A stretch of DNA of 64,000 nucleotides from the NCBI GenBank assembly GCA_018268315.1, contig JAFDWU010000002.1:124001-188000 (forward strand). Reading direction: 5' to 3'. Origin of the DNA: Armatimonadota bacterium. GTDB taxonomy: Bacteria > Armatimonadota > Fimbriimonadia > Fimbriimonadales > Fimbriimonadaceae. Below the pieces are notes generated by a model, which saw only the letters and a list, made by a program, of their open reading frames with translations, made no database searches and was not told where the DNA came from. The translations under genes were made by a program, and so were the position numbers. Of this stretch, positions 36,018 to 39,818 are shown one piece after another. Each line of letters starts with the position of its first letter. The stretch's first letter is position 1.

Positions 36018-37214
36018 ATGCCCCAGTTTGCTTATGTAGCCGTGGATGCAAAAGGTCGCCGAGTTAAGGCGATCATGGAAGCCGAATCCGAACAGGGCGT
36101 ACTCGCCAAGCTTCGGGATCAGTCGCTTACCTGCACCGAAATCCGCCCCATCGCTAAATCCAGAGGCATTGGCCCCGCAAAACTGAAGCCGAAAAGCGTT
36201 ATCGTCTTTTCGCGAACGTTTGCCACGATGATCGATGCCGGTATCCCGATTCTCCGCTGCCTAGAAATCCTTGGCGGCCAAACTCGCGATCCTTTGATGC
36301 GCGAGACAATTCTCCAGATCACCGCCGATGTAAAGGGCGGTATGACTCTGAACGAATCTCTTCAAAAGCACCCACGCGTGTTTAGCAAGCTTTACGTAAA
36401 CATGATCCGCGCGGCTGAAGTCGGCGGCATCCTTGATCAGATTCTTGAGCGGCTTAGCGGCTTCCTTGAGTACGAAGCCGAAATTCGCGGCAAGATCAAG
36501 GCGGCGATGATGTACCCGGTCCTGGTCCTCATCTTTAGCCAGGTCATGCTGTTTGCGCTCTTCTCATTTGTCTTGCCGAAGTTCAAAGACATCTTCTCTG
36601 GCATGAACGTGGAACTACCGCCGGTTACCAAGGCGCTGTTCGTCATGGGCGACTTCATGGGCGCCTATTGGTGGCTCGTACTGCTGATGATGGGCGGAGC
36701 GTTTGTGGCGTTCAAGGCCTGGGCTAAGACACCGGCGGGACGATATCAAGTCGATTTTATGAAACTGCGCATTCCAATCGTCGGTGAGCTCGCGCTCAAG
36801 ATGAGCGTCGCTCGATTCAGCCGAACGTTTGGAACGCTGATTAGCGCGGGTGTACCGATGATCCGAAGTCTCGAGATTGTTGGCGAAACCCTTGGCAACG
36901 CGGTGCTTACGGAGGCTATCGATAAGACTCGCATAAGCATTCGCGAGGGCCAAAAGCTTTCCCTGCCGCTAGAACAAAGCGGCCTGTTCCCCACCATGGT
37001 CACGTCCATGATCGACATCGGAGAGGAATCCGGTCGATTGCCGGAGATGCTGGTCAAGGTGGGAGACTTCTACGACGGAGAGGTTGAGACGACTGTAAAG
37101 GGTCTTACCTCGATGATCGAACCCATGCTCATCATCTTTATGGGTTGCGTCGTTGGCTTTATCGCCATTTCTATCATGACGCCGATCTTTAAGCTGGTGA
37201 CGAGCGTGAAATAA
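36018..37214 (+). CDS. gspF: Type II secretion / type IV pilus inner-membrane protein GspF (PilC)
   Basis: The 398-residue protein has two repeats of the GspF domain (about 65-190 and 265-390), each ending in membrane segments, with three spans overall. Motifs include FSRTFATMIDAGIPILRCL and FSRTFGTLISAGVPMIRSL at the start of each repeat. It is the platform on which the assembly ATPase extends pilins. AGGAG lies before the ATG. The ATPase and other components are not adjacent; a prepilin is encoded at 59366. PilC and GspF cannot be distinguished. Confidence 0.93.
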   Translation: MPQFAYVAVDAKGRRVKAIMEAESEQGVLAKLRDQSLTCTEIRPIAKSRGIGPAKLKPKSVIVFSRTFATMIDAGIPILRCLEILGGQTRDPLMRETILQITADVKGGMTLNESLQKHPRVFSKLYVNMIRAAEVGGILDQILERLSGFLEYEAEIRGKIKAAMMYPVLVLIFSQVMLFALFSFVLPKFKDIFSGMNVELPPVTKALFVMGDFMGAYWWLVLLMMGGAFVAFKAWAKTPAGRYQVDFMKLRIPIVGELALKMSVARFSRTFGTLISAGVPMIRSLEIVGETLGNAVLTEAIDKTRISIREGQKLSLPLEQSGLFPTMVTSMIDIGEESGRLPEMLVKVGDFYDGEVETTVKGLTSMIEPMLIIFMGCVVGFIAISIMTPIFKLVTSVK

Positions 37215-37306: not shown

Positions 37307-37327
37307 GCTTCGCAAGGATCGCGAAGC
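37307..37327. repeat. Inverted repeat ahead of the sigma-GGDEF gene
   Basis: GCTTCGC (37307-37313) and GCGAAGC (37321-37327) flank a 7-nt centre and end 21 nt before the ATG at 37349. It could be an operator or an RNA stem just upstream of the ribosome site GGAG. Confidence 0.45.
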
Positions 37328-37348: not shown

Positions 37349-38614
37349 ATGTCGGATAACGTTAATTGGCATGAGGATGGCGAAGCATTGGTGCTTCGTT
37401 ACTTGCAGGACCCGCGCTCGGACCTGAAGGATATGATCATGGTCCACTATGCTGGACTGGTCGAGCGAACCGCCCGCAAGTTTAGCGGCATGGAGGCCAT
37501 AGAAGACCTGCTTCAAGTAGGTTTTATTGGCTTGCTCAACGCCCTTACAAAGTACGACGCGGAAGCGGGCGTGCGCTTCAATACCTATGCCACCTACCTT
37601 GTTTCCGGCGAGATCAAGCACTACCTGCGTGATCGCTCCCTCACTATCCGCCACCCTGCCTGGTTGCAGGAGCTTCGCCACAAGGTAAACCGCACCGCCG
37701 GTCTGCTTCAGCAGACTTTAGGGCGAACGGCGTCTGCGCGTGAAATTGCCGACAAGCTGGGGGTAAGCGAGGCCTCCGTGAACGAGGTCTATCAGACTCA
37801 AGACATGCTCAAGTTGGCAAGTCTTGACCAGGGGCTATCGCCGGATGAGGATGGCGATGAGCACGATAAGCTGGACGCCTCCACAATGTGCGCGGAGCAG
37901 CTAAGCGTAGAAGATCGCCTGCTTCTTGAGCACGCGATGGCGCAGCTGCGAAGCTTGGAGCGAGAGGTTCTCACTCTCTTCCACTTCAGGGCGATGAACC
38001 AGACCGAGATCGCGAACGAGTTGGGACTAAGCTGCAACTACGTTTCCCACATCTTGCGGCAATCGCTTGCCAAGCTACGTAAGATTCTCACCAGCGAGGA
38101 AGAGAACGATCGCAAGCTGCGCGCGGTTGAGACGAATTACGATTTGATTGACCCACTGACCGGTGCCTACACCGAGCAGTACTTCCACGCTCGGCTCACG
38201 GAAGAGCTGCATCGAGCGATGAGCGGACAAGGGGCCGTCTCGGTTGTGATGGTGCACTTCTCAGGGCTAGAACACCTCCAGCGGTTCTATGGCGAAGCGA
38301 GCGTGCGAGATTTCCTTTCCGACGCGGCGGACTTCCTGAAGTCCAATGTGCGTCGGCTCGACATCCTGGCCCGATGCGGAGACAGCTCGTTCGGTGTGCT
38401 CCTGCCAGGAGCAAGCGTCAGCGCTCAGAACGCGCACAAGCGCTTGATGGGCAGGATTGAAGAATGGATGAACGACCGCGTGCAGGCTAGCGGATGCATC
38501 GAGATGTCAGTCCAGCAGGCTACCGCGCCGAAGGATGGCAAGACGGTAAATGAGCTCATGGCCGTTTTGAATCCGCCGGTTGACGGCGAGGCGCCGCAAC
38601 GTCGCGCCGCTTAG
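37349..38614 (+). CDS. Group 3 sigma-70 factor fused to a degenerate GGDEF domain
   Basis: The 421-residue protein has sigma region 2 at about 15-95, with EDLLQVGFIGL and GEIKHYLRD typical of SigB/SigF/FliA-like group 3 factors, region 3 at about 100-160 (helix-turn-helix ASAREIADKLGVS) and region 4 at about 190-247 (LNQTEIANELGLS-like helix-turn-helix). After a short helix comes a GGDEF-fold domain from DPLTGAYTEQYF (268) to about 400. The active-site loop, usually R-x-G-G-D-E-F, reads RCGDSSF at 342-348, and the first metal-binding aspartate is His303, so it should not make c-di-GMP. It probably binds a ligand or protein that controls promoter choice. The gene follows gspF by 134 bp and has GGAG before its ATG. 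Confidence 0.88.
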   Translation: MSDNVNWHEDGEALVLRYLQDPRSDLKDMIMVHYAGLVERTARKFSGMEAIEDLLQVGFIGLLNALTKYDAEAGVRFNTYATYLVSGEIKHYLRDRSLTIRHPAWLQELRHKVNRTAGLLQQTLGRTASAREIADKLGVSEASVNEVYQTQDMLKLASLDQGLSPDEDGDEHDKLDASTMCAEQLSVEDRLLLEHAMAQLRSLEREVLTLFHFRAMNQTEIANELGLSCNYVSHILRQSLAKLRKILTSEEENDRKLRAVETNYDLIDPLTGAYTEQYFHARLTEELHRAMSGQGAVSVVMVHFSGLEHLQRFYGEASVRDFLSDAADFLKSNVRRLDILARCGDSSFGVLLPGASVSAQNAHKRLMGRIEEWMNDRVQASGCIEMSVQQATAPKDGKTVNELMAVLNPPVDGEAPQRRAA

Positions 38615-39597
38615 GGATGCCATTGCGCAAGAGCGCGCCATCGGCTTGACTCGTAGAGGCTTGCCGAACTCGGCGCGCCCTGCCAAGCGAGGATGCCGAA
38701 AGGCGTCCGCGTGATCTTCGTATCCGCGTCAAGACGCATTTGCGCCCCGCTGACTCCGTTTGCCAGCACTCGCCCGCTTGCACTATCGATAAGGAACACG
38801 CTTGGTGCGAGGCCGTCGATCGCCTCCAACTTGCCGGGCGACTCCACGAGCCGAGTCCTCACACCGGAAGTTAGGTTCAACCCACCGCCAACGAGGGTGC
38901 CATAGCCGCTCTTCTCCACGTAGCAGGCGTGGGTAGGCGCCGTTCCCGGCGCGAACTGAACGAGTTCCTTGCCTACCTTTTTGAATCCAAATTTCTTCTC
39001 GGCGGGGTCGTACGATGCGATGCCCCAGCCATCGGCAGTTTGAGTGCAGGTCGTAAGGCTTTCGCCGTTTGCCGCAAGCTGATTGCCGATGAACTTATCG
39101 GAGGTGGTAAGGCCCTCGAACTTGCCGACAAGGCTCCAAGTCGGCTTCTTCTCAGTGAGATCGACACGCACAAGGGCTTCGAGCCAAGGCTTGTGGTCTT
39201 TGCCGTCCCACCGCACTAGGAAATACGCGGCGTTGCCAACCCGCAACGAGCCGCTGATGGCGGAGGCATCCTTGGTTCGGGAACCATCCTTGAAGCGCGA
39301 CAGATTCTTCCTGATCTCCTCACGCGGCGTCAGCTTTGGCGAAACCGCCAGCTCTCCAAGATGGCTAGAACGCACCAGCGAGCCAACTCGCACCGTGAGG
39401 CCGCGAGCATCCCACACCGCCCAATTCTGATCCCGCCGGTAGGCCACGTGGGGATTCGCGTCTGGCTTTCCTCCCGCGGGCACGGTGGCTTTCGCCCCCT
39501 TTCGCACCACCGTGAACGCATCCTTTTCAAAAGTGATTTGCGTATCCGGGGATTGCGGGGCGGCGTACAGGGCAAGAATCGGTAGCAGTTGGATCAT
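38611..39597 (-). CDS. Exported protein of unknown function
   Basis: I do not recognise this 328-residue protein. It starts with a signal peptide (MIQLLPILALYAAPQ) and continues as recurrent beta strands (NPHVAYRRDQNWAVWD, NAAYFLVRW, VFLIDSASGRVLAN) at intervals that suggest a six- or seven-bladed propeller. No catalytic motif is seen. I chose ATG 39597, since the frame back to 39660 would place residues before the signal peptide. Its stop overlaps the sigma-GGDEF stop as TTAG. Confidence 0.65.
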   Translation of the reverse strand: MIQLLPILALYAAPQSPDTQITFEKDAFTVVRKGAKATVPAGGKPDANPHVAYRRDQNWAVWDARGLTVRVGSLVRSSHLGELAVSPKLTPREEIRKNLSRFKDGSRTKDASAISGSLRVGNAAYFLVRWDGKDHKPWLEALVRVDLTEKKPTWSLVGKFEGLTTSDKFIGNQLAANGESLTTCTQTADGWGIASYDPAEKKFGFKKVGKELVQFAPGTAPTHACYVEKSGYGTLVGGGLNLTSGVRTRLVESPGKLEAIDGLAPSVFLIDSASGRVLANGVSGAQMRLDADTKITRTPFGILAWQGAPSSASLYESSRWRALAQWHP

Positions 39598-39606
39598 CGT
39601 TTCTGA

Positions 39607-39612
39607 TATTGT
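39607..39612 (+). promoter_or_regulatory. -10 element TATTGT before the Cys-rich mini-protein
   Basis: TATTGT is followed by 8 nt and GTG 39621; no ribosome site lies between. Confidence 0.4.
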
Positions 39613-39620
39613 GACGAGAC

Positions 39621-39818
39621 GTGTACTGTAAAGACTGCCACCGTTTTGATAAGGAATCAAACCGTTGCATGGATGGCAAGGTAAATCCTGATCGCTGGGA
39701 TCAGGCGGTGCAGGTCGCGCAGATATTCGGAGTGCGGGCGGTTTGCCCGTTTAACGACTTCCGAGAGCGGCTGGTTGCCTCACGAACGCCAAGCCACAGA
39801 TTGAGCCGCCAAGATTAG
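39621..39818 (+). CDS. 65-residue Cys-rich putative zinc protein
   Basis: Cysteines at 3, 6, 16 and 42 in MYCKDCHRFDKESNRC and VCPFNDF suggest a zinc site of the C-x2-C type. It is not recognised. The first half is polar; the second half has a short helix (AVQVAQIFGV) and basic tail. GTG 39621 starts it, 8 nt after a -10-like hexamer. It lies 20 nt before the DprA-like gene, which has its own -10, so any functional link is only proximity. Confidence 0.55.
   Translation: MYCKDCHRFDKESNRCMDGKVNPDRWDQAVQVAQIFGVRAVCPFNDFRERLVASRTPSHRLSRQD

Follow-up and report, generated by a model that had tools for sequence, protein, structure and literature searches.

The 64,000-nt stretch of DNA analysed here (the window, to whose positions all coordinates refer) contains a single uninterrupted ORF at 37349..38614 on the + strand, which starts with ATG, has no internal stops and encodes a protein of 421 aa. 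Based on the ORF itself, Pfam, NCBIfam and its relatives, this gene encodes a fusion of a sigma factor and a GGDEF domain; residue numbers refer to this fusion, with PleD equivalents where stated. Using Pfam, we identified sigma-70 region 2 (aa 33-97, 37445..37639; PF04542 Sigma70_r2, 5e-13), region 3 (aa 108-173, 37670..37867; PF04539 Sigma70_r3, 1e-10) and region 4 (aa 196-245, 37934..38083; PF04545 Sigma70_r4, 7e-12), followed by a degenerate GGDEF domain (aa 267-404, 38147..38560; PF00990, 2.8e-17 in the whole protein), all on the + strand and all four above the curated cut-offs. The isolated C-terminus matched the GGDEF profile at 4e-18. An earlier note on this DNA had read the frame as a sigma factor with regions 2, 3 and 4 joined to a GGDEF domain, and the profile searches bear this out. 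Upstream lies pilC (36018..37214, +), which encodes a T2SSF/PilC-type inner-membrane protein of type IV pili (PF00482, 2.6e-63; NF052607, 3e-119, below the curated cut-off). A convergent ORF of 349 aa (38611..39660, −) overlaps the fusion gene by its final 4 bases; it has homologues in 10 loci and no Pfam match. The 7-bp inverted repeat that the earlier note pointed out upstream of the fusion gene is present (37307..37313 and 37321..37327), but we rejected it as an operator and give it no weight because, by our own estimate, chance alone would yield ~0.2 such repeats in the stretch.

With sigma-70 regions 2, 3 and 4 and without region 1.1, the fusion has the composition of a group 3 sigma factor. 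The best NCBIfam match of the sigma half was TIGR02980 (SigB/SigF/SigG; 5e-52, below the curated cut-off), with FliA/WhiG next, and the residues of regions 2 and 4 that are conserved among the fusions appear compatible with binding to core RNA polymerase and promoter-specific transcription. An AlphaFold2 model of the fusion had a mean pLDDT of 86, with most of the GGDEF core at ~95; the arrangement of the sigma part relative to the GGDEF part is uncertain because the pTM was 0.47. In this model, a single predicted helix (aa 229-262; 38033..38134, +) bridges region 4 and the linker. Foldseek matched the GGDEF part to Thermotoga maritima 4urs/4urg (target-normalised TM 0.75-0.78) and returned SigB 8x6g among the best matches for the sigma part, together with WhiG 6pfj and 6pfv. 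The C-terminal half is, therefore, a GGDEF domain by profile as well as by predicted fold.

Sigma factors and GGDEF domains are encoded by separate genes as a rule, and the earlier note had named a sequencing-fusion artefact of two genes as a possible objection. We consider such an assembly or annotation artefact, in which two adjacent genes were joined, vanishingly improbable because full-length homologues occur in many genomes. They were found in 58 of 61 genomes of the family and order, in 97 of 113 genomes of the class Fimbriimonadia (E<=1e-30; among the 97, one match ends at a contig end and one carries a stop), and in at least 53 genomes from at least 16 further Armatimonadota families, so that the identical full-length architecture recurs in ~150 independent genomes. 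A tree built on the sigma part grouped the 94 fusions in one clade (support 0.93) separate from paralogues and outgroups. Together, the homologues at the level of family and order, class and phylum and this tree rule out the artefact, and the single clade makes one ancestral fusion event likely. The relatives with a fusion among those listed all belong to the Armatimonadota, chiefly to the Fimbriimonadaceae and Fimbriimonadales. Outside this phylum, a scan keyed on short exact peptide patterns returned only sigma-only relatives (~250-265 aa) among the best 80 loci. The closest of these sigma-only relatives (L119-L150) are mostly from Melainabacteria/Sericytochromatia; two loci among them, L130 and L143, are labelled Fusobacterium sp. 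and may be mislabelled. We also note that in the complete genome of Armatimonadetes bacterium Uphvl-Ar1 (CP021423.1; L106), the fusion is broken after ~residue 332, immediately ahead of the RxxD motif, by either real decay or a sequencing frameshift.

We compared 94 non-identical GGDEF domains of fusions with 56 GG[DE]EF-bearing domains from the same phylum (referred to as active domains) and with PleD, the reference sequence of which was confirmed against PDB chains. As described in the earlier note, the domain begins around D268, the active-site loop reads RCGDSSF (R342 to F348; 38372..38392, +), and H303 (38255..38257, +) occupies the position of the metal-binding D327 of PleD. These defects extend across the family. 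The GG[DE]EF motif that marks diguanylate cyclases is present in 0/94 fusions vs 56/56 active domains; D327 is retained in 14/94 vs 56/56 and D344 in 24/94 vs 55/56; N335 of PleD, present in 56/56 active domains, is not among the common residues of the fusions; and K442 is mostly lost (n=94). The predicted loss of cyclase activity, which the earlier note had proposed for this protein, thus appears to hold throughout the family. In the deep-branching lineages L068-L070, the loop still reads RYGGG/DxxF (RYGGGTF) within near-canonical flanks, which argues for descent from an active cyclase and fits a decayed enzyme turned receptor.

The residues of the inhibitory site (I-site) have a different fate. 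The RxxD motif of the primary I-site (R335-R-L-D338; 38351..38362, +) corresponds to R359 and D362 of PleD, each of which is present in 94/94 fusions vs 39/56 active domains. The primary I-site arginine R365 (PleD R390; 38441..38443, +) is found in 89/94 vs 39/56, and the secondary I-site arginine R289 (PleD R313; 38213..38215, +) in 93/94 vs 18/56. In alignment A1 (76 members), no column of the C-terminal domain is invariant except R335 and D338, and R289 and R365 are on the short list of columns conserved in >=90%. A dead A-site combined with a retained RxxD motif and its supporting arginines is, as far as sequence can tell, the signature of PopA-type receptors. The earlier note had left the ligand as GTP or c-di-GMP; the near-universal retention of the I-site in a family that has lost its catalytic residues points to c-di-GMP. 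Some degenerate GGDEF domains bind GTP allosterically, as does Caulobacter CC3396, and a domain that senses GTP or another nucleotide at its degenerate A-site would fit this precedent. We regard such sensing as very unlikely here because most fusions lack the metal-binding Asp, N335, D344, the GGDEF loop and K442.

The conservation of R359 and D362 in the fusions may be partly structural because both are common in GGDEF domains generally. Their presence in 39 of the 56 active domains thus also lends some weight to a reading in which the GGDEF fold binds no nucleotide, serves solely in structure or protein interaction (as a means of dimerisation or of polar localisation) and keeps its I-site residues for folding; FimX, a degenerate GGDEF protein with a role in type IV pilus control, provides a parallel (PMC12564702). 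For the same reason, most weight falls on the R313 contrast and on the I-site set being complete. The prevalence of R313 in the fusions speaks against a purely structural module, as does the distribution of the fusion relative to other GGDEF proteins. All 97 class genomes with the fusion also carry another, strong GGDEF domain, while the fusion is absent from every one of the six class genomes without any strong GGDEF domain (G063, G064, G071, G080, G052 and G054; Fisher p=3e-6, phylogeny ignored, the six genomes representing two genera). Because these genomes fall in two genera, the co-loss of the fusion and the other GGDEF proteins corresponds to about two events. Overall, we consider it unlikely that the domain is structural only and favour a c-di-GMP receptor.

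Dependence between the fusion and other GGDEF proteins is one-way. Five class genomes that are >=98% complete (G062, G073, G075, G076 and G078), one of them a 5.2-Mb single contig, have intact GGDEF domains and no fusion, and the fusion is, therefore, dispensable. In fusion-less genomes, the best sigma matches were other, shorter sigma proteins. Three near-complete genomes of one genus (g19; G063, G064 and G071, 98-99% complete) have no GGDEF domain at all and retain 8-10 T2SSF matches; c-di-GMP synthesis has apparently disappeared altogether from these lineages, in which T2SSF/pilC genes persist.

Downstream of the GGDEF domain, the fusion has a tail of variable sequence and ends in Ala-Ala (38606..38611, +). 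The same end, known from ClpXP substrates with an Ala-Ala degron, is found in 84/94 fusions vs 8/654 neighbouring ORFs (>=200 aa) and 0/73 in the pilC cluster. It is a candidate Clp-type degron, hinting that turnover contributes to the control of the fusion. CtrA of Caulobacter likewise ends in Ala-Ala. PopA delivers CtrA to ClpXP in a manner dependent on c-di-GMP and on the I-site (PMC12564702, PMC3764195). By this precedent, the GGDEF domain could be a PopA-like delivery module and Ala-Ala a ClpXP/ClpAP-type degron, in which case c-di-GMP would gate proteolysis and set the amount of the sigma factor rather than its activity. We view this as a possible but less probable explanation. Several lineages without Ala-Ala (the deep lineages L064, L065 and L068-L070, and also L043/L109/L110) keep the GGDEF domain, and the degron cannot, therefore, be the sole mechanism.

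The gene neighbourhood ties the fusion to type IV pili. A PilC/T2SSF homologue lies directly upstream of the fusion on the same strand in 72/88 loci and on the opposite strand in 1 further locus (the 73rd of 88); the remaining 15 loci have no pilC upstream, 2 of them owing to a contig end. In deep lineages, the gene order is pilB-pilT-pilC-fusion. In Rubrobacter, the c-di-GMP-controlled sigma factor of the WhiG/RsiG pair acts on type IV pili and drives pil genes (PMC8325347). Based on the pilC neighbourhood and by analogy with this precedent, type IV pili are the best guess for the regulon of the fusion, which most likely includes type IV pilus genes. Upstream of 22 pilin-like genes in this genome, we found four FliA/WhiG −10-like sites, with no clear excess when multiple tests were allowed for, and no SigB-type promoter consensus. 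As the pilin upstream regions gave no prominent consensus of either FliA or SigB type, the assignment of the pilus regulon is based on gene neighbourhood only.

During these searches, we observed a two-part element, CCnGYAnnnnTRC followed ~33 bp on by TGGAA, upstream of the major pilin gene in most relatives (L236-L265), ~50-160 bp before the pilin start codon; the major-pilin homologue of the source genome (G000:C1:332111-332398) lies outside the window. The element is enriched at pilins, with 19 sites (<=1 mismatch) in 185 kb vs 0 after shuffling, and elsewhere occurs at about chance level. A riboswitch search upstream of the pilins found neither an Rfam match nor a consensus RNA structure, and the element is, therefore, probably a promoter or operator.

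These data suggest, with fair confidence, that the fusion is a one-component c-di-GMP-responsive alternative sigma factor with a built-in receptor and a tie to type IV pili. The broader proposition, that it represents a phylum-wide class of sigma factors, each its own c-di-GMP receptor via the I-site, switched in activity or stability without an anti-sigma factor and controlling type IV pili, we hold somewhat less firmly, judging it only a little better than even. In the model that we propose, the N-terminal half would be a complete SigB/SigF-type sigma factor able to bind RNA polymerase and recognise promoters, and the C-terminal half a former diguanylate cyclase that lost catalysis and was retained as a c-di-GMP receptor. 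Intercalated c-di-GMP dimers would bind the primary I-site (R335, D338 and R365), R289 of a second GGDEF domain would supply the secondary I-site arginine, and the bound ligand would thereby lock the GGDEF domains as a dimer. The signal would pass through the helix between region 4 and the GGDEF domain and may alter how the sigma factor engages the −35 element or core polymerase, or else change its stability by way of Ala-Ala; type IV pilus genes would lie within the regulon. Analogy with WhiG-RsiG suggests that c-di-GMP would inhibit the sigma factor. The earlier note had proposed direct second-messenger control of promoter choice: such control is plausible, and promoter choice itself we infer, the fusion probably reading c-di-GMP and choosing promoters directly. 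That note overlooked the conservation of the I-site, the pil neighbourhood, the phylum-wide spread, the co-loss with other GGDEF proteins and the Ala-Ala end.

Each half of this arrangement has known counterparts. The RsiG anti-sigma motif is E(X)3S(X)2R(X)3Q(X)3D. As in WhiG/RsiG of Streptomyces and Rubrobacter, where the Rubrobacter switch controls type IV pili, a group 3 sigma factor would be under c-di-GMP control (PMC8325347). There, however, c-di-GMP is held by the separate coiled-coil anti-sigma factor RsiG together with WhiG, whereas the fusion carries its own GGDEF domain, its sigma part is nearer to SigB/SigF than to FliA/WhiG, and the widely shared neighbours in the 88 loci include no anti-sigma gene. 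SigB/SigF/SigG sigma factors share with the fusion regions 2, 3 and 4, the TIGR02980 match and the SigB 8x6g structural match, but they are controlled by partner switching between separate anti-sigma and anti-anti-sigma factors, none of which was seen adjoining the fusion gene. PleD, WspR and the T. maritima cyclase tDGC have the same GGDEF fold (4urs/4urg) and the same I-site residues; they are active cyclases that use the I-site for product inhibition, while the fusion family is predicted to be without catalysis throughout. PopA of Caulobacter and PelD, a further degenerate-GGDEF receptor of c-di-GMP, are effectors rather than enzymes, with a dead A-site and a preserved RxxD I-site (PMC12564702); PopA binds c-di-GMP at this site through its dead GGDEF domain (PMC12564702, PMC3764195). 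Unlike the fusion, PopA is response-regulator-like and has no sigma domain, and CtrA, the transcription factor that is degraded, is a separate protein.

We found no paper describing a sigma-GGDEF fusion in a literature search conducted mostly outside subscription journals, and in a review of c-di-GMP receptors, sigma factors appear solely via WhiG-RsiG. Dead-GGDEF receptors and c-di-GMP-controlled sigma factors are thus known already; new within the literature searched is the presence of both in one protein conserved across a phylum. We know of almost no genetics in the Armatimonadota. Known control of sigma factors by c-di-GMP works via a separate anti-sigma factor (RsiG on WhiG). If the proposed function is correct, no known path from a second messenger to promoter choice would be shorter than a sigma factor that carries its receptor; the fusion would be a convergent counterpart of WhiG-RsiG in the control of pili, and it would provide a first handle on c-di-GMP regulation in the Armatimonadota.
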